Shown here piece by piece: positions 7,405-54,150 of a DNA stretch of 64,000 nt (the stretch's first letter is position 1; each line of letters opens with the position of its first letter). The notes below the pieces were generated by a model that saw only the letters and a list, made by a program, of their open reading frames with translations, did no database searches and was not told where the DNA came from. The position numbers were made by a program, and so were the translations under genes. Source of the stretch: Bryobacteraceae bacterium (GTDB lineage Bacteria > Acidobacteriota > Terriglobia > Bryobacterales > Bryobacteraceae); NCBI GenBank assembly GCA_019748195.1, contig JAIEPW010000022.1, positions 124,001 to 188,000 of the forward strand. The letters are read 5' to 3'.

Positions 7405-8072
7405 CAGGCGGTAGCGCGATTCACAAGAACGCCTTCCACCGGAACCCGGATCGTGAATCGGGCGCCTGGCCGGTCCGTGCGATTCGCGGCGGTGACCTCG
7501 CCGTCGTGATCCTTCACAATCGTATCCACAATGTGCAAACCCAAACCTCGCGAAGCGTGCGTGGAAAAGCGCGGCCGGAAGATCTCCGGCAGGATCTCCT
7601 CGGCAATTCCACTGCCATGATCGGCGACTTCCAGCGCGATCCATCCGGGGATGCGCCAGGCGCGGACCTCGATCACCCCGCCGTTGGGCATCGCGTTCGC
7701 GGCGTTCAGGAACAGATTGATCAGCACGCGCTCCCAGGCCCAGGGTTGACCCTGAATCCGCAACCCGCTATCCACATTGGTGACGAATTCCAGCCGGCAG
7801 CCCTGCACCGTTTGCGCGAAATCGCGAGCAAATTGTATGGCATTGTCCACGACCGCGGCCAGGTCGATGCTTACGCGGTCCTTGGAATTGAAGCTCTGGA
7901 CGATGCCGCGGCCGCGCTCCACGGTGTGAAACAGGGTGCCCGACAGTTGCTCCCATTTCGGATCGGAACTCAGAAGCTCGGCTGCCTCCAGCAGCGTCTG
8001 GAAGACGTTGTTCAGGTCGTGGACGAGACATTCCGCGGAGAGATCCGGCTGCCGGTCTGGTTCGCTGGTCAT
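7404..8072 (-). CDS. Small soluble histidine kinase without sensor domain
   Basis: 222 residues from the ATG at 8072 (a GTG one codon earlier is also possible). The ATG overlaps the aroA stop by one base. It holds only the catalytic core: phospho-acceptor His18 in VHDLNNVF, N box INLFLNAANAM (Asn123), G1 box DHGSGI (151-156), an F-box-like FRPRFST and G2 box RGLGLHI (175-181). There is no membrane segment, PAS, GAF or receiver domain. The H box is of the HDLNN kind seen in some PAS-linked kinases and not the usual HELRTP. No response regulator is adjacent; its partner must lie elsewhere, unless it acts through the hybrid kinase of this locus. It is coupled to genes on both sides. Confidence 0.86.
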   Translation of the reverse strand: MTSEPDRQPDLSAECLVHDLNNVFQTLLEAAELLSSDPKWEQLSGTLFHTVERGRGIVQSFNSKDRVSIDLAAVVDNAIQFARDFAQTVQGCRLEFVTNVDSGLRIQGQPWAWERVLINLFLNAANAMPNGGVIEVRAWRIPGWIALEVADHGSGIAEEILPEIFRPRFSTHASRGLGLHIVDTIVKDHDGEVTAANRTDRPGARFTIRVPVEGVLVNRATA

Positions 8073-9352
8073 CACTGGGTAATCAGCCGCAGGGTATCAA
8101 AAAACTCCGGGAACGATACCGATGCGGCTTCCGCTCCTTCCACGATCGTCTCTCCGCGTGCGGCTAGGCCGGCCACCGCGAACGCCATCGCGATCCGGTG
8201 ATCGCCGAAGGAGTCCACGGCCGCGCCTTGGAACTGCTGCCGGCCGGGAATCTCCAGTCCGTCCTCCCGCTCCTCGGCCCGCACACCCATGCGCCGGAGA
8301 TTCTCCACGATGGCGCGGATGCGATCGGTTTCCTTCACCCGCAATTCCTGCGCATCGCGCACCCGCAATCCATTCTCGCTTATGGCGCCGAGTATGGATA
8401 GCGCCGGGATTTCGTCGATCAACGCGGCCGTTACCGCGCCCTTGATCTCGCCGCCGCGAACCGGCCCGCCGCGAATCTGCAGATCCCCCAGCAACTCCCC
8501 TCCGCTTTCGCCGATCTGCAGGATCTTGAAACGCGCGCCCATGGCGGTCAGAAAATCCAACAGCAGGGAGCGGGTGGGATTCATGCCGACGCCGGCGATG
8601 GTCAGGCGCGAATCCGGGAACAGCAGCGCGGCCACCAGGAAGAACGCGGCGGAGGAGATGTCGCCGGGCACCCGCAGTTCGCCGCCCTTGAGGACGGCGG
8701 GTCCCGTGACGGCAACGAGTCCCGGCGCCACTCGGATCTCGGCTCCGAATTCGCGCAGCGCCAGTTCGGTGTGATCGCGCGTGCGCACTGCTTCGCGGAA
8801 AACGGTCTCGCCGCGGGCGTACAAGCCCGCCAGCAGGACGCATGTTTTCACCTGCGCGCTGGCTACGGGCGGCGTGTAATCCAAGGGCCGCAGTTCGCCG
8901 CCGCGAATGACCAGCGGCGTGAAATTGTCTTCACGCGCCTCCACGGACGCCCCCATTTGCCGCAGCGGCGCCATGATCCGCTTCATCGGCCGCCGCGACA
9001 GCGATTCGTCGCCGGTCAGCCGAGATTTGAACGGTTGTCCCGCCAGGATGCCGCTCATCATGCGGATGGTGGAGCCGGAGTTGCCGCAGTCCAGGTCGCG
9101 CGAGGGAGGCTTGAATCCGCGGAGCCCCACGCCTTCGATGGTGATGTCGCGGTCCTCGCGGAGCAGCTTCACGCCCAGCGCCTCGAGGACGGCGAGAGTG
9201 GAGTGGCAATCGGCGCCGCTCGAGTAGTTTCGAATCTTGGTTTGCCCTTCGGCGATCGCGGCCAGCATCGCGTAGCGATGGGAAATGGACTTGTCGCCCG
9301 GCACCATCAACGCGCCGCTGATGCCGCGCGCGGGTCGAATGACTTGCTGCAT
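8072..9352 (-). CDS. aroA: 3-phosphoshikimate 1-carboxyvinyltransferase (EPSP synthase)
   Basis: 426 residues, the normal length. It joins phosphoenolpyruvate to shikimate-3-phosphate in the chorismate pathway in the cytosol. Seen motifs: GDKSISHR (19-26), GNSGSTIR (90-97), the substrate loop GDESLSRRPM (from about 114), VKETDRIRAI, and the C-terminal DSFGDHRIAMAFAVAG. These are the two pseudo-symmetric halves of the enzyme. The GNSGST pattern fits the class II type (Bacillus-like) more than the E. coli type. It starts 33 nt after the CEEC-repeat gene and its stop is shared with the kinase start. The chorismate enzyme AroB is encoded separately at 59.2 kb. Confidence 0.97.
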   Translation of the reverse strand: MQQVIRPARGISGALMVPGDKSISHRYAMLAAIAEGQTKIRNYSSGADCHSTLAVLEALGVKLLREDRDITIEGVGLRGFKPPSRDLDCGNSGSTIRMMSGILAGQPFKSRLTGDESLSRRPMKRIMAPLRQMGASVEAREDNFTPLVIRGGELRPLDYTPPVASAQVKTCVLLAGLYARGETVFREAVRTRDHTELALREFGAEIRVAPGLVAVTGPAVLKGGELRVPGDISSAAFFLVAALLFPDSRLTIAGVGMNPTRSLLLDFLTAMGARFKILQIGESGGELLGDLQIRGGPVRGGEIKGAVTAALIDEIPALSILGAISENGLRVRDAQELRVKETDRIRAIVENLRRMGVRAEEREDGLEIPGRQQFQGAAVDSFGDHRIAMAFAVAGLAARGETIVEGAEAASVSFPEFFDTLRLITQ

Positions 9353-9385: not shown

Positions 9386-10150
9386 TCAGTCCGCTTCCAG
9401 GCGGGCGCACTCTTCGCAAAACGCGTTGCCCGATTGCGCGGCCGCCCGCAGCGCCTGAGCCTGGTTCACCGCGTCCAGTTCCGGTCCGGATAGGGGCTGC
9501 CGCTGCGCGTCCTGGACGCACTCCTCGCAGAACGGAATGCCCGCCGCCGCGGCCGCACGCAGCGTGTGAGCCTGCAATGCGGCATCCAGGCCGGGGGAAA
9601 ATACGGGCACTTCCTGCGGCAGCACCGCAACCTGGCGCCGGGCCCGTTCGCACTCCTCGCAGAACGGAGCGCCCAGTCGCGACGCCCGCCGCAGAGCCGC
9701 CACCTGCCCCAAGGGATCGTGAACATCGCTGAAGGTGTCTTCCGGCGATTCCGGCGACGGCGCCTCGCCCGGAGCGGGAGATGCGGGAGCGCGGCGCGGC
9801 GCAACCGGAGCGTCCCAGCTATATCCGAGCGGTTCCACCTCTACTTCGTGCAGCACAACCAGCAGATCGCCGCGCGCCAGCGCATGCAAAGCCTGGCTCC
9901 ACACGCCGCTATCGGAGAGCAGGTCCACATGCAACCCGGGACGATGGCGGCGAAACAGCCCTCGGAGCTGCGGATAGAAAAGCGATTGCTGGCGCGCGCC
10001 GAGCAGAAACCGGCGAGCCTTCTCCGGCTCCAAAATCCAGCCGCTCTGCGGCTTCTCACTCCACCAGCACAACAGCGCCCGCACTTCCTTGGCCTTCTGG
10101 CCCGCGGAAGGCGAGGGAATTCTGCTGTAGGGGCGGACCGGGATCAACAT
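9386..10150 (-). CDS. Protein with three FCEEC repeats, function unknown
   Basis: 254 residues from an ATG at 10150 preceded by AGGA at a 6-nt spacing. Residues 1-110 are an undescribed globular region rich in Leu/Trp (ALLCWWSEKP, RALHALARGDLLVVLHE-like text). A Pro/Ala/Glu linker (115-140) follows. The C-terminal half has three copies of a unit ending in FCEEC: Cys164/167, Cys208/211 and Cys245/248, each preceded by an alanine-rich helix of the form ALRxAxxxG. CxxC pairs in triplicate suggest metal or disulfide chemistry, but no zinc-ribbon context is seen. I recall similar FCEEC segments near type VI secretion cargo, but no such genes are adjacent. No signal peptide. It sits 33 nt before aroA. 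Confidence 0.6.
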   Translation of the reverse strand: MLIPVRPYSRIPSPSAGQKAKEVRALLCWWSEKPQSGWILEPEKARRFLLGARQQSLFYPQLRGLFRRHRPGLHVDLLSDSGVWSQALHALARGDLLVVLHEVEVEPLGYSWDAPVAPRRAPASPAPGEAPSPESPEDTFSDVHDPLGQVAALRRASRLGAPFCEECERARRQVAVLPQEVPVFSPGLDAALQAHTLRAAAAAGIPFCEECVQDAQRQPLSGPELDAVNQAQALRAAAQSGNAFCEECARLEAD

Positions 10151-10186: not shown

Positions 10187-13100
10187 TCAACCCGGCAGCG
10201 TGCGACGGGAAGGCGTGAACGAATCGATCACTTCAAACAGCTTGCCCGCGTCGATCGGCTTATCGACAAACGCGTCCATCCCGGCTTGCAGGCATCGCTC
10301 CCGATCGCCCTTCATGGTGTGGGCGGTCAGCGCCACGATGGGGATGTGGCCGCCGTGCAGGCGTTCATGGCCGCGGATGTGCCCGGTGGCCTCCAGTCCA
10401 TCCATCTCCGGCATCTGCACATCCATCAGAATCAGGTCGAAGGGCTGCGTGCTCAGAACATCCAGCGCTTCGCGCCCGGTGTTCGCCACGGTCACCGAAT
10501 GCCCTCGCTTTTCCAGCAGCCGCACGGCCAGGCGCTGATTCACGGGATTGTCTTCGGCCAGCAGGATCCTCATGCCGGAAGCCGGCGGTTCGGCCCCCAT
10601 CATCGACGCCATCATGTTGCGCAGGGACGACGTCTCGATCGCGCCCGTGACCGCGGGCCAGCCGAAACGCGCCGTGAAATGGAAGGTGCTGCCGCGGCCG
10701 GGTTCGCTCTCCACCCAGATGCGTCCGCCCATCATTTCCACCAGCCGCGTGCAAATGGCCAGACCCAGGCCGGTGCCGCCGAATTTGCGGGTTGTGGATC
10801 CGTCCGCCTGACGGAACGCCTCAAAGATGACTCGTTGCTTCTCCGAGGGGATTCCCACTCCGGTATCGCTAACCGAGAACTGATACTCCACGCCCTGTTC
10901 CTCGATGGCGAGAGTCTGCACACTCACCCGCACCGTGCCGCGCTCCGTGAACTTGATGGCGTTTCCCAGCAGATTCACCAGCACCTGGCGCAGGCGTCCG
11001 GGATCGCCCAGAATGCGGTCGGGCACATCCGGGTCCAGCAGGGCGCGCACGGCCAGCCCTTTCTCTGAGGCATTCACCGCCAGCAGACGCGTGGTCTGGT
11101 CGATCACCTCGCGCAGGCTGAAGCTGATCGGATCGAGTTCCAGGCGGCCGGATTCGATCTTGGAGAAGTCCAGAATGTCATTCAGAATCTGGAGCAGGAA
11201 ATCGGCCGAGAGTTTCGCCAGTTGCAGGTTGTCCCGCTGTTCGTCGGATAGATCCGTCGCCAGCACCAGATTGGTCATGCCCATGATCCCGTTCATGGGC
11301 GTGCGAATCTCATGGCTCATGTTGGCCAGGAATTCGCTCTTCATGCGGCTAGCCTGCTGCGCTTCCTGCAGCAAGCGCTCGATCTCGCGCTTCTGATCCT
11401 GAACGATGTGCTTTTCGCTCTCCACGCGGGCCTTTTCGCGCATCAGCTCGGCGGTCCGGCGGCCGACAGCGCTTTCCAGGCGGGTACGATCGGTTTCCAG
11501 CCGGCGCATGCGGCGTAGCCAGATCAGGCGGCTCAAGCCCAGCAGTCCCAAGCCGGCCAGCAGACGGAACCACCATCGCTGCCACCATGCCTGCTCGATC
11601 TCGAAACGAAATCGCGCGGGCTCCGCGCTCCACACGCCCTGCGCGCTGCGAGCCTCGACTTCCAGCGTGTATCGTCCCGGCGGCAGGCCGGCGTAGTTGA
11701 CTTCGCGCCGCGAGGTCTCGGTCCACTTCGGCTCCAATCCGGCCAGGCGATAGCGGAACTGTACGGCGTTCTCCTCCAGGAACGTGAGCGCGGCGAAGCG
11801 GGCCGCGAACGCGTTCTCGCGATACTCCACCGTGGGCGCGGCGGGCGCGCCGTACTCGCGAGTGCCCAGCGTGATGTTGGTGAACACGACCGGCGGAGGA
11901 ACGCCGGGCGAGGGCGTCAGACGCGGGCGAAAATGCGACAAGCCCCGCCTGGTGCCAATCCAGACGCTGCCATCGGCCTCCGCCAGAAATCCGCGCGGCG
12001 AGCAATCGTCCCATACCAGGCCGCTCGACCTCGAATAGTGCCTCCAGCGGTCGCGATCGAACACATCCACGCCGCGATCCGTGCCCGCCCAAATCCACCC
12101 GCGCTGGTCCCGTCCCAGGAACACGATGCGGTCGCTCATCAGGCCGTTGTGGACGTTGGTGTGATCCGCTTCCACCCGATCGCCCTCGATACGTAGTCGG
12201 GTCACCCCTAGCGCGTCGCGATAAGCGACCCAGATGCCGCCTTCGGCGTCGGACACGACGTCCGCAACCGCCGCCGCTCGCAAACCCTCGGCGACGCCGA
12301 ACAGCCGGAATCGCCCGCGCTCCCAGCGCAGCAGCCCTGCCGGTCCCGCTGCCCAAACCACGCCTGGTTTCTCCACGTAGAGGCGGAAGAAGGAGTGCTT
12401 CCCTGCTTCCGGAACGGGCGCGAACTGATCTCCGCTGCCGCGATACAAGCCCCGCCGGGTCGCTACCCATATCCCGCCGGTGAGGTCGGCCGCGACGTCC
12501 GACGCGGGCTCCGGTGGGAGCCCGTTCGGGGCTCCGAACCAGCGGATTTCGCCACCGGCTTCGATCCGCGCGACTCCGGCGTCGCCACCCACCCACAAAT
12601 CGCCTCGCGTCCCCGAAGCAGCCGTTTCCACCCGATACGGGAAATCCCGCCGCCGCCATCGCACCTTGCCGCCCGCTTCTTCCCCGCGGAACAACCGGAG
12701 CCTCTGGCTGACCCACAGCCGCCCGGATCCGTCGCGCACGATCGCACCGACGGGCTGGCGTCCCAGCCCGTCTTCGGGACTCCAGGTTCGCCATTCCGTG
12801 TGACCCACCCAGCGCGCCAGGCCGAGCCCCAAGGTCCCGATCCACACCGACCCTTCGCGATCCTGAAACAGCGTGGAGACTCCATTGGCGGGCAGCCCCG
12901 CTTGTTCGTCGATTCGAGTCCACTGTTCGCCGGATTTCTGAACGATGCCGGAGTCGCTCGAGATCAGCAGGCTTCCGTCCGGTCCCAGGGCCAGCGACGG
13001 ATCTCCCGCGGCTTCCGCCGGGGGGACGCCGGCGATCCGGACGAACCGCTTTGCGCCTTTCGCCAGCGAGTACAGCGAGTGGGCGCTGCGCACCCACAGG

Positions 13101-13771
13101 GTGTCGTCGAGATCGGTGGCGATCGCTTGCCACCGCTCCCGCGGCAATCCCCACTCGGGACCGAGAACGAGCGTTTGATCCGCGGTCTTGCGGCACAAAC
13201 TGACACCGCATCCGAACCATACGCCGCCCACCGCGTCGACGGCAACCGCCCACGCGTCCGCTCCGGTCGCGCCTTGCGGCCGCGGCAGCAATTGGAACAC
13301 CGTGGTCCCGTTCCGCCGTTTTCCCGCCGCCAGGCCCCGCTCGGTGGCAACATAAACGGTGCCCGACTGATCCGAGGCGATGCCGTGACGCCCGCGCACC
13401 TCGCTAGCCCCACCTAAGGGCGTGGTCTCGAAGCGATCTCCATTCAACCGGGCGAGTCCGGCGGGCGTCCCGGCCCACAACGTCCCGTCGGCGGATTCGT
13501 GCAGCGCTTGCACCTGGGATCCGGCCAGCCCCTGATCCCTGCCGTAGGGAACAAACCGGCTGCCGTCATAACGATACAAGCCATTTTCCGTCCCCACCCA
13601 GAGGAAGCCTGCACGATCCTGCAGGATGGAGTGGACCGACAGATTCCCCAGACCTTCCTGCTCTCCGTACAGCCGGAAATTGTAGCGCTGGGCGAGCAAG
13701 GCCGGCGTCATGGCCGCAAACAACAATATCGCCGTAAAGCGGAAAGCCGGATTGAGCCCGCGCTGAGACAC
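10187..13771 (-). CDS. Hybrid sensor histidine kinase/response regulator with periplasmic beta-propeller
   Basis: 1194 residues from a GTG at 13771. Order: signal peptide ([17 protein letters not shown]); about 14 two-component propeller repeats (e.g. [20 protein letters not shown]) to about residue 620; a Y_Y_Y beta-sandwich ([14 protein letters not shown] to [11 protein letters not shown]); one membrane helix after [10 protein letters not shown] near 750; a coiled coil; the HisKA domain with [13 protein letters not shown] around 815-825; HATPase ([26 protein letters not shown]); and a C-terminal receiver with the acceptor in [13 protein letters not shown] near 1117. It lacks the AraC-type DNA-binding tail of Bacteroides hybrid regulators, so it must phosphotransfer onward. 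In Bacteroidetes such propellers sense glycans; the ligand here is unknown. Confidence 0.95.
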
Positions 13772-50982: not shown

Positions 50983-51888
50983 ATGGAAATTGAGCCCCTC
51001 CACCCCGGGATGTCCGGAATGTTCCCCCGCGATGCCGCAGTGGAGCGGATCGCCGCCGGGTTCACCTGGGCCGAAGGTCCGGTCTGGGACTACCGCAATA
51101 ATCGCCTGCTTTTCTCCGACATCCCGGCGAACGCGATCTGGCAATGGACCGCCGAAGCCGGCGCGAGCCTGTTCCTGCGGCCCAGCGGCTACACCGGAAG
51201 CGAGCCCTTCCGCGGTCCCGAGCCCGGCTCCAACGGCCTGACCTTCGACCCGCGGGGCCGCCTGGTGATGTGCCAGCACGGCGACCGCCGCGTCGCGCGC
51301 CTCGCTCCTGACGGTACTTTCGAGACCCTCGTCGACAGTTACCGCGGCAAGCGCCTGAACAGCCCCAACGACCTGGTCTACCGGAGCAACGGCGATCTGT
51401 ACTTCACCGACCCCGCCTACGGCCTGCCCGACACCTTCGACGATCCCGCGCGCGAGCTCGCCTTCTGCGGCGTCTATCGCCTGGACACGTCCGGTGAACC
51501 GCACGCCGTCTGTCTCGAGCTCAGCCGCCCCAACGGGCTCGCTTTTTCGCCGGACGAGCGGACACTGTACGTCGCCAACTCCGACCCGCAACTCGCCCTC
51601 TGGCGCGCTTACGATGTTCTGCCGGACGGCGGCCTTGCCAACCCGCGCGTCTTCCACGACGTTACTCCGCTGGCCGGCAAGCTCAAGGGACTGCCGGACG
51701 GGCTGAAAGTGGATCGCGCCGGGCGTATCCTCGCTACCGGCCCGGGCGGGATCTTCGTGTTCTCGCCGGAGGCCCGGCTTCTCGGCCGCATCCATCATCC
51801 GCGGGCCATCGCCAACGTCGCCCTCGGCCCCGGCTATGTCTACCTGACCGCGACCTCCGAGGTGTGGCGGGTTCCGTTCAACGGCTGA
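50983..51888 (+). CDS. SMP-30/gluconolactonase-family lactonase
   Basis: 301 residues from the ATG at 50983, 8 nt after the previous stop. A six-bladed beta-propeller with the family's metal-binding residues: FTWAEGPVWDYRNNRLLFSD (the Glu ligand), RLNSPNDLVYRSNGDLYFTD (Asn and Asp), and RPNGLAFSPDERTLYVANSD. Typical for gluconolactonase and related sugar lactone hydrolysis with a divalent metal. It lacks a signal peptide, so acts in the cytosol unless exported with its neighbour. TonB receptor gene follows after 81 nt. Confidence 0.9.
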   Translation: MEIEPLHPGMSGMFPRDAAVERIAAGFTWAEGPVWDYRNNRLLFSDIPANAIWQWTAEAGASLFLRPSGYTGSEPFRGPEPGSNGLTFDPRGRLVMCQHGDRRVARLAPDGTFETLVDSYRGKRLNSPNDLVYRSNGDLYFTDPAYGLPDTFDDPARELAFCGVYRLDTSGEPHAVCLELSRPNGLAFSPDERTLYVANSDPQLALWRAYDVLPDGGLANPRVFHDVTPLAGKLKGLPDGLKVDRAGRILATGPGGIFVFSPEARLLGRIHHPRAIANVALGPGYVYLTATSEVWRVPFNG

Positions 51889-51969
51889 TCCGGCCCGCCG
51901 GGCCGCGCTTCCGATCCCGCTGGTTCGTCATTCGTTGCGATGGAACAACGACGCCTCTAACTTATAAGG

Positions 51970-54150
51970 ATGCTTCGTCCGCTCGCTTCCTGGGGTGCTC
52001 TCGCGCTCTGCCTGATCCCGGCCTTCGGCCAACAGACGGGAACCATTCGGGGCGCCGTCAAGCTGGAGCGCAACGGCGATCCGCTGCACCACGCCACTGT
52101 CTATCTCGTCGAGCCGCGCCGCACCGCGGAAAGCGGTGAGGATGGCGCCTACGAGTTTCGCGACCTGCCGCCCGGCAAGTACACCGTGGTCGCGCATCTG
52201 CATCCCTTCAGCGATGAGCGCAAGACCGTCGAGATCACCCCCGGCTCCACCGGGGTCGCCGATTTCGCCATGCGCATCGCCGCCATCCATGAAGAGGTGA
52301 ACGTCACTTCCCGCGGCGTGGAGCAGTTGGGCCTCGAAAGCTTCCAGACCGTGCAGTCCATCGAGCAGTTGGATCTGCTGCCGCGCACCTCCACGGGCCT
52401 GGGCGAGACCCTGGAAGGACTGACGGGCGTGGCCAAGCGCAGCTTCGGCCCCGGTTCCTCCCGCCCGGTGATCCGCGGCTTCGACGGCGATCGCGTGTTG
52501 ATCATGCAGGACGGCCTCCCCACCGGCACCCTTTCCTCCCAATCCGGCGATCACGGCGAACCCTTCGATTCCAGCGCCGTGGAGCGCATCGAGATCGTCC
52601 GCGGACCCGCCACACTGCTGTGGGGCACCAACGCCCTGGGCGGCGTCGTCAACGTGATCACCGGCCAGATCCCCGCGGACCTGGAGCCGCGCGACGATGT
52701 TCACGGGTTCCTCAGCACCAACGCCGGCTCCACCAACGGCCAGTTTGGCGGCTCCGGCGGCGTCGACTTCGGGCTCGGCCGCTGGATGTTCGCCGCCGCC
52801 GGGGGCGGGCTCCGCACCGGCGACTACGGGACGCCCATCGGCAACGTCTTCAACTCCGGCAGCCGCCTCCAGTACGGCAACGGATCCGTGGCCCGCTACG
52901 GCGAAAAGGCCTTCTTCAATTTCAACTTCGGAACGTGGGACGGCCGCTACGGCATTCCCTTTCCCGCCGAAGAGCGCTTCGAGGAACCTGGCGAGAAAAT
53001 CGATTGGCGGCGCTACAACGGCCGCTTCACCGGCGGTCTCAAGAACATCAACAGCTACCTGGACCGCCTCACCGTGCAGATCAACTTCAGTGACTGGCTG
53101 CACCGCGAGCTGGAAGGGTCCAAGGTGGAAACCGAGTTCTTTAACAAGATCTTCTCCTACCGCGCGGTGGTGGACCAGAAGAAGCGCGGGCGCTGGTCCG
53201 GCAGCTTCGGCGTGTCCGGCCTGCGCCGCGACTACGAGACCGTCGGCGACGAAACGCTGGCCCCGCCCACCATCCAGAACAACTTCGCCGCCTTCGGACT
53301 GCAGGAGTTCGACTTTGAGCGTTTCAAGGTGCAGTTCGGTGGGCGCGTGGAGAACAACCGCTTCCGCCCCAACGGCAATTTCCGCGACCGCGGCTTCACC
53401 GGCTTCTCCGGTTCCGCCGGGATCAACACGCGGCTGTGGACGGGCGGATCGTTCGTGGCCACCTACTCTCACTCCTATCGCGCCCCCGCGATCGAGGAGC
53501 TTTACAACTTCGGCCCGCATCCCGGCAACCTCGCGTTCGAGATCGGCAATCAGAACCTGCGGCGCGAACGCGGCGACGGCATCGAACTCTCCTTGCGCCA
53601 GAACAACTCGCGCTTCCGCGGCGAATTCAACTTCTTCTACTACGGCTTGAAGGACTTCATCTACCTGGCCCCCACCGGCGAGGTGGAGGACGATTTGTTC
53701 GTGGCCGAGTATCTGCAGGGTAACGCCCGCTACTTCGGCGCGGAAGCCCGCGCCGATTTCCGGCTGCACCGCTCCCTGTGGCTGAACGCCGGCTTCGACA
53801 TGGTTCGCGCCGAGCTTCGCGCCGATTCGACGCCCCTGCCCCGCATCCCGCCGCTGCGCGGGCGGCTTGGATTCGACTGGCGCTGGAAGGGTTTCGGCAT
53901 CAACCCCTACTTCCAGTTCCAGGATCGCCAGGATCGCGTGTTCCTCACGGAGACGGAGACCCCCGGCGCCGCCGTGTTCCACCTGAACGCCTCCTACACC
54001 TGGGCCAGCAAGCACCTGCTGCACGCGTTTAACGTGCTTTGGTTCAACGCAACGGATCGCCTGTACTTCAACCACACGGCGTTCATCAAGAACTTCGCCC
54101 CGGAGATCGGCCGCGGCGCGCGCGTGTCGTACACGATGCGGTTCTTCTAG
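51970..54150 (+). CDS. TonB-dependent receptor with carboxypeptidase-regulatory N-domain
   Basis: 726 residues. Signal peptide LASWGALALCLIPAFGQQ; a short carboxypeptidase-regulatory domain (GTIRGAVKLERNGDPLHHAT to RDLPPGKYTVVAHLHPF, about 22-90); plug (LDLLPRTSTGLGETLEGLTG, VIRGFDGDRVLIMQDGLPTG, VERIEIVRGPATLLWGTNAL, GGVVNVITG); barrel ending in the insertion signal RGARVSYTMRFF with a terminal Phe. The plug with SQSGDHGEPFDSSAVERIE resembles the ZnuD/HmuR-type metal or heme receptors and has His-rich positions near the N-terminus. Substrate unproven. AAGG directly abuts the ATG, too close for a normal ribosome site. Confidence 0.92.
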   Translation: MLRPLASWGALALCLIPAFGQQTGTIRGAVKLERNGDPLHHATVYLVEPRRTAESGEDGAYEFRDLPPGKYTVVAHLHPFSDERKTVEITPGSTGVADFAMRIAAIHEEVNVTSRGVEQLGLESFQTVQSIEQLDLLPRTSTGLGETLEGLTGVAKRSFGPGSSRPVIRGFDGDRVLIMQDGLPTGTLSSQSGDHGEPFDSSAVERIEIVRGPATLLWGTNALGGVVNVITGQIPADLEPRDDVHGFLSTNAGSTNGQFGGSGGVDFGLGRWMFAAAGGGLRTGDYGTPIGNVFNSGSRLQYGNGSVARYGEKAFFNFNFGTWDGRYGIPFPAEERFEEPGEKIDWRRYNGRFTGGLKNINSYLDRLTVQINFSDWLHRELEGSKVETEFFNKIFSYRAVVDQKKRGRWSGSFGVSGLRRDYETVGDETLAPPTIQNNFAAFGLQEFDFERFKVQFGGRVENNRFRPNGNFRDRGFTGFSGSAGINTRLWTGGSFVATYSHSYRAPAIEELYNFGPHPGNLAFEIGNQNLRRERGDGIELSLRQNNSRFRGEFNFFYYGLKDFIYLAPTGEVEDDLFVAEYLQGNARYFGAEARADFRLHRSLWLNAGFDMVRAELRADSTPLPRIPPLRGRLGFDWRWKGFGINPYFQFQDRQDRVFLTETETPGAAVFHLNASYTWASKHLLHAFNVLWFNATDRLYFNHTAFIKNFAPEIGRGARVSYTMRFF

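Follow-up and report, generated by a model that had tools for sequence, protein, structure and literature searches.

The 254-residue protein encoded in the window (the whole 64-kb stretch of Bryobacteraceae DNA that was analysed) may, with a probability that we put at roughly 60%, act as a multi-slot docking platform of the type VI secretion system (T6SS) for adaptors of the DUF4123 (Tap) family. This reading is drawn from sequence and concerns a unit with the motif FCEEC, which the protein carries three times and which is best explained as a tail bound by T6SS adaptors of the DUF4123/Tap family. The preliminary description had regarded the same units as possible binding sites for a metal or a disulfide partner. 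Because the unit adjoins adaptor genes in relatives, a multi-slot loading platform is more likely than a metal-binding protein.

The window gene and its three units

The features of the window that matter here, all on the minus strand, are the following.

9386..10150, minus strand: gene of the 254-residue protein (stop codon 9386-9388)
9836..10093, minus strand: N-domain, residues about 20-105, predicted strand-helix-helix-helix-strand
9629..9742, minus strand: unit 1, residues 137-174, with C164/C167 (profile A1 match, 62.6 bits)
9497..9610, minus strand: unit 2, residues 181-218, with C208/C211 (profile A1 match, 55.6 bits)
9389..9493, minus strand: unit 3, residues 220-254, with C245/C248 (profile A1 match, 51.6 bits)
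10187..13771, minus strand: neighbouring hybrid two-component sensor-regulator (Reg_prop, Y_Y_Y, HisKA, HATPase_c, Response_reg), given as context
8072..9352, minus strand: neighbouring aroA (EPSP synthase), given as context

The window gene is separated by 36 bp from the hybrid kinase and by 33 bp from aroA, both neighbours having been correctly recognized in the preliminary description. The frame is taken to be real, since it has matching relatives and its G+C content by codon position resembles that of aroA and the kinase. The gene is present in one copy in a genome of 5.83 Mb, the only one to represent the genus of the source organism. Its product consists of the N-domain, a Pro/Ala/Glu-rich linker and the three FCEEC units, the third of which forms the C-terminus while the first two are internal. 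The protein has no Pfam match over the cut-off and no NCBIfam match; the earlier view of the N-terminal domain as novel holds in the sense that no Pfam family matches it over the cut-off. The CxxC pairs had further been described as evenly placed behind ALRxAxxxG helices. The three pairs are indeed present, in FCEEC motifs whose first residues are 163, 207 and 244, and each unit is preceded by an LRxAxxxG-type stretch; the even placement is approximate, the spacing being 44 and 37 residues. When the 64-kb window was searched with local profiles and with eight query proteins of the T6SS, neither a DUF4123 domain nor a second N-domain nor a T6SS gene was detected, and one further unit match, in the frame at 51498-52136 on the plus strand, is weak (E 0.062).

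The consensus of the unit is QAxxLxxAAxxGxPFCEECEKA. In the window protein, identity among the three 26-residue cores amounts to 46-58% at the protein level and 60-68% at the DNA level; the cores are diverged copies in which FCEEC has been kept. Such DNA identity rules out a recent tandem duplication, and a chance repeat is ruled out by the three exact FCEEC cores, the profile matches and the gene coupling described below. The units were modelled, albeit with low confidence (pLDDT about 46-65), as helix-turn-helix structures with helices at residues 146-158/165-175, 190-202/209-217 and 223-239/246-253. The N-domain modelled alone (pLDDT 85.5, pTM 0.71) comprises a strand, three helices and a strand. 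Fold searches gave no convincing match, either for the whole-protein model (E no better than 1.9 in PDB and 0.38 in BFVD, Z at most 2.4) or for the N-domain against PDB folds (best E 0.42, Z 2.8), which does not imply a new fold. Among PDB sequences, the best match of the unit had an E of 7.2, and that of the N-domain, over 34 positions of a metalloenzyme (E 0.0029), was not taken as real.

Distribution of the unit and its coupling to DUF4123

Relatives of the window protein were found by protein search in 22 of 200 genomes of the family. Profile A1, built from 29 rows, gave 57 matches at 42 loci, distributed over 38 of the 200 genomes and 20 of 76 genera. The unit was also detected in 8 of 395 other Acidobacteriota genomes (a few of them of the same family) and in 2 of 229 genomes of Gammaproteobacteria, so that the signature is not general in the latter. 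A scan of genome contigs yielded 14 unit loci, seven of them in Pseudomonas and the other seven in acidobacterial, delta-type and gammaproteobacterial MAGs, two Myxococcaceae MAGs, a tubeworm endosymbiont and Psychromonas. Matches in Acidobacteriota, Pseudomonadota and Myxococcota keep the cysteines, and the distribution that the preliminary description had named as speaking against its proposal, a single genus with no conserved cysteines, is not what was found.

Within the family, DUF4123 is encoded in 37 of the 38 unit-positive genomes versus 21 of the 162 unit-negative ones. The single exception (G110, locus L098) looks like the start of a zinc ribbon, i.e. a false match, and was kept in the counts, as were two further doubtful rows: an implausible frame in G654 (L186), and L148, where the unit-like match is internal to a frame resembling VgrG and the stretch lacks DUF4123. 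At 36 of the 42 family loci, a DUF4123 domain starts 59-441 bp downstream of the unit on the same strand; the rough chance expectation is 0.0007 loci if 6.5 Mb per genome is assumed; because the family genomes are related, p-values for the coupling overstate their independence. In G085 and at L147 the DUF4123 gene is convergent rather than downstream, and in G124 the carrier lies at the beginning of its contig and DUF4123 is encoded on the opposite strand, at a distance of about 3 kb. The same arrangement recurs outside the family. Seven of the eight unit genomes among the other Acidobacteriota have DUF4123 70-397 bp downstream (six behind VgrG, one behind PAAR), and DUF4123 is the next gene at all six proteobacterial loci examined at first (L032, L034, L038-L041). 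The VipB sheath gene is likewise found in 36 of 38 unit-positive versus 100 of 162 unit-negative genomes. The clustering of unit matches with contractile-injection genes, proposed earlier as a matter for a profile search, is thus borne out for the T6SS, and the unit is very probably tied in function to DUF4123 adaptors.

Conversely, 48 of the 84 DUF4123 matches of the family have no profile unit upstream. Twenty of these 48 loci were read by eye. Ten have no tail at all upstream, which shows that DUF4123 proteins can do without the unit; the remaining ten have a recognizable tail, which contains CxxC in three cases, a single cysteine in five and no cysteine in two. The second cysteine is absent as well from two profile-positive tails, those of L088 (ending in FCEH) and L093 (FCQIWPH). 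Since the second cysteine, and sometimes both, are lost in related tails, the corner around the first cysteine is the better conserved core. The window protein keeps all six cysteines. In Pseudomonas, VgrG tails at L034, L036, L037 and L040-L043 have an extended unit with four cysteines (CEECEKCKAGAC and its variants), which is a possible lineage-specific metal site.

Carriers of the unit and the adaptor of the same genome

Of the 62 distinct frames collected that bear the unit, 31 contain the N-domain, 19 are VgrG, 5 are PAAR and 7 are other proteins; the loci having been collected through the unit, these numbers are no census. Classes were set by BLAST to the VgrG of this genome, by a PAAR letter pattern and by profiles, and the borderline cases L127, L038, L140, L035 and L075 were for this reason counted as other. 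Among the 62 frames, those of VgrG and PAAR have one unit each and several units are found only on N-domain frames: one unit in 22 of them, and two, three and four units in 3 each. The window protein, which has neither a VgrG nor a PAAR domain, belongs to the N-domain class. Two other carriers show the unit in different settings. In the frame L031:7689-8882 (+), a single FCEEC unit lies between a PAAR domain and a domain of zeta-toxin type, i.e. between spike tip and cargo domain; a DUF4123 match follows about 2 kb downstream of this PAAR-unit-zeta frame (L139/L031). At L032:7449-9662 (+), the protein encoded after a four-unit carrier has two DUF4123 domains, i.e. multiplication is seen on both sides.

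The N-domain (profile A5) is present in 30 of the 200 family genomes. All 30 encode VipB, versus 106 of the other 170, and 26 of the 30 encode DUF4123. In eleven distinct frames the N-domain is present and no unit scores over 15 bits. Among these eleven, the domain is fused at L173 to a peptidoglycan-binding module and a VgrG-tail-like stretch, and at L169, where a degenerate unit is present, to a carboxypeptidase-regulatory-like domain. Another of them, a fusion of the N-domain with glucosaminidase (L174:3458-4168, minus strand) is encoded in a family genome that has VipB and no DUF4123 match.

DUF4123 is missing beside the window gene, as it is beside the four-unit genes of G063 and G106, and is encoded elsewhere in all three genomes. 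It does adjoin further multi-unit carriers, with two to four units each, in G184, G176, G191, G196 and G112 and at L032. The genome of the window protein encodes VipB, VgrG, a ClpV-type ATPase, TssF, a gp25-like protein, ImpA/VasJ and VipA on C82 and VasE (TssK) on C30. Besides, C152 (L048:9673-11025, plus strand), at about 80 kb from the window, encodes a lone protein of VipB type, 451 residues long, which also matches VipA weakly and has no T6SS neighbours among the named matches. A stand-alone DUF4123 gene is located on another contig, C128, and the surrounding 18 kb that were read gave no T6SS match. When 82 adaptor domains were placed in a tree, the C128 domain fell in a clade of 32 members, 27 of which are unit-adjacent. 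The five others are those of G000 (the genome of the window), G063 and G106, that of G085, where the carrier is convergent, and that of G061, which has a degenerate-unit carrier. The clade has a support of 94/90, just below the mark of the tree tool; the tree was built from few columns and leaves many of its forks unresolved. The other DUF4123 of this genome, on C30 beside TssK, is placed elsewhere in the tree. The placement of the C128 domain fits, with modest support, a pairing of carrier and adaptor in trans, and the C128 DUF4123 protein is probably the partner adaptor of the window protein. DUF4123 is also found in longer proteins: at L110, L112 and L116 it stands behind a long N-terminal part, FHA-like by eye, with no unit directly upstream, and at L082-L084 the DUF4123 proteins have some 550 extra residues and adjoin proteins that are Ser/Thr kinase-like by eye.

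A proposed docking platform and its alternatives

According to passages of three papers that cite Colautti et al. 2024 (PMC12133291, PMC12909789, PMC13133936), the N-lobe of Tap binds an extension of VgrG or PAAR. The unit resembles the extension as portrayed there in being a short addition to the spike-side partner, helix-turn-helix in the low-confidence model, and in being encoded, in relatives, directly upstream of DUF4123. The window protein departs from that scheme in that the carrier is neither VgrG nor PAAR, the unit is present in three tandem copies, no DUF4123 gene is adjacent and the N-domain has no Pfam match, the FCEEC unit having been set beside the published tails by description only. 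By this comparison, the unit would be a tail of helix-turn-helix shape built around the PFC(EEC) corner and gripped by the N-lobe of the Tap adaptor, whose other lobe would hold the effector. The tail, single on the VgrG and PAAR relatives, is here present threefold on a small alpha/beta N-domain, which we propose attaches the platform to the tube or the spike of the T6SS. Binding of the unit by the adaptor is suggested by its position together with the published work on VgrG and Tap; that the N-domain engages tube or spike, that the platform is multivalent and that it is secreted are likewise inferred. A passage in one of the same papers states that a VgrG without the helix-turn-helix still recruits its adaptor (PMC13133936). 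The preliminary description had added that its proposal would fall if the unit were a known domain. On the one hand, the unit corresponds in position to the VgrG/PAAR tail modelled as Tap-binding; on the other hand, no curated model of it was found in Pfam or NCBIfam.

Other explanations of the window protein have to be weighed against the docking platform. The N-domain protein may itself be cargo, i.e. an effector or co-effector loaded by the adaptor, with its tails serving as export signals. Such a role would be in keeping with the fusions of the N-domain to glucosaminidase (L174) and to peptidoglycan-binding or VgrG-tail-like modules, as well as with the unit between PAAR and the zeta-toxin domain at L031. 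However, the window protein comprises the N-domain, the linker and the units and nothing else, the unit-bearing gene occupies the place of vgrG or paar ahead of the DUF4123 gene, and no immunity-like neighbour was seen in the window; we thus regard this explanation as unlikely. A function as a metal or redox protein, each CxxC binding zinc or iron-sulphur or forming disulfides, alone or pairwise between units, appears decidedly unlikely. The spacing within each CxxC recalls C4 zinc ribbons and CxxC redox motifs, and both cysteines are invariant across the 29 A1 rows, although these had been picked with the cysteine pattern. Zinc-type Pfam matches of the window protein and its relatives are weak and below the cut-off (best E 0.0067; 0.0006), the best two of the window protein scoring 16.9 and 16.8 bits against cut-offs of 27 and 29.1. 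Unlike a C4 ribbon, however, the unit has one CxxC, which supplies two ligands, and is modelled as helix-turn-helix. Moreover, an obligatory metal or disulfide site is disfavoured because related DUF4123-linked tails often have one cysteine or none, and metal binding would leave the coupling to DUF4123 unexplained. A metal or disulfide partner for each unit, the proposal made at the outset, is consequently unsupported as the main role, and the four-cysteine VgrG tails of Pseudomonas leave room for a metal in some lineages.

Two further explanations concern the setting of the gene rather than the unit. The window copy might be a decaying remnant, or might have been co-opted by the adjacent kinases and have ceased to serve the T6SS. 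This would account for its tight packing between aroA and the hybrid kinase and for the lack of a T6SS gene among the matches in the window, but seems very unlikely for a frame that is intact, retains three exact FCEEC cores despite the divergence of the copies in DNA and coexists with a DUF4123 of the matching clade in its genome. Finally, the tandem tails could act as a decoy or store in the cytosol, keeping DUF4123 adaptors bound until they are needed and not going to the spike. The detachment of the three- and four-unit proteins of G000, G063 and G106 from an adaptor gene would suit such a store, yet DUF4123 does adjoin further carriers that have two to four units, and we give this idea hardly any credence.

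Tap binding of VgrG and PAAR tails is already known. The N-domain carriers with tandem tails were not found in the titles and abstract openings returned by literature searches; the same holds for the FCEEC motif in the titles and abstract openings on VgrG/PAAR/CxxC, DUF4123 and Tap6/VgrG6, and none of the matches listed for FCEEC was about the T6SS. Colautti et al. 2024 may already contain the FCEEC signature. The N-domain is also reminiscent of the MIX and FIX marker domains of the T6SS, as portrayed in passages of PMC10673891, in being N-terminal, in having varied C-terminal modules and in occurring in genomes that all carry the sheath gene. In contrast to these markers, it is mostly joined to docking tails; it is likened to them by description and has no Pfam match over the cut-off.

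The docking platform reading points to T6SS cargo loading in Acidobacteriota, for which the papers listed in a literature search on DUF4123 have one mention each. The motif AAxxGxPFCEEC provides a sequence handle by which recruiters of DUF4123 adaptors could be found, including those encoded at a distance from T6SS clusters. It is tempting to go one step further and to consider a third kind of T6SS carrier, in which an N-domain attached to the tube or spike shows one to four tandem Tap-docking tails; we advance this tentatively, as a possibility at somewhat less than even odds. If true, several adaptor-effector complexes could be carried per shot, and in some species the adaptor would be supplied in trans. 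Multi-tail carriers that are neither VgrG nor PAAR would make the number of effectors per T6SS shot directly testable.
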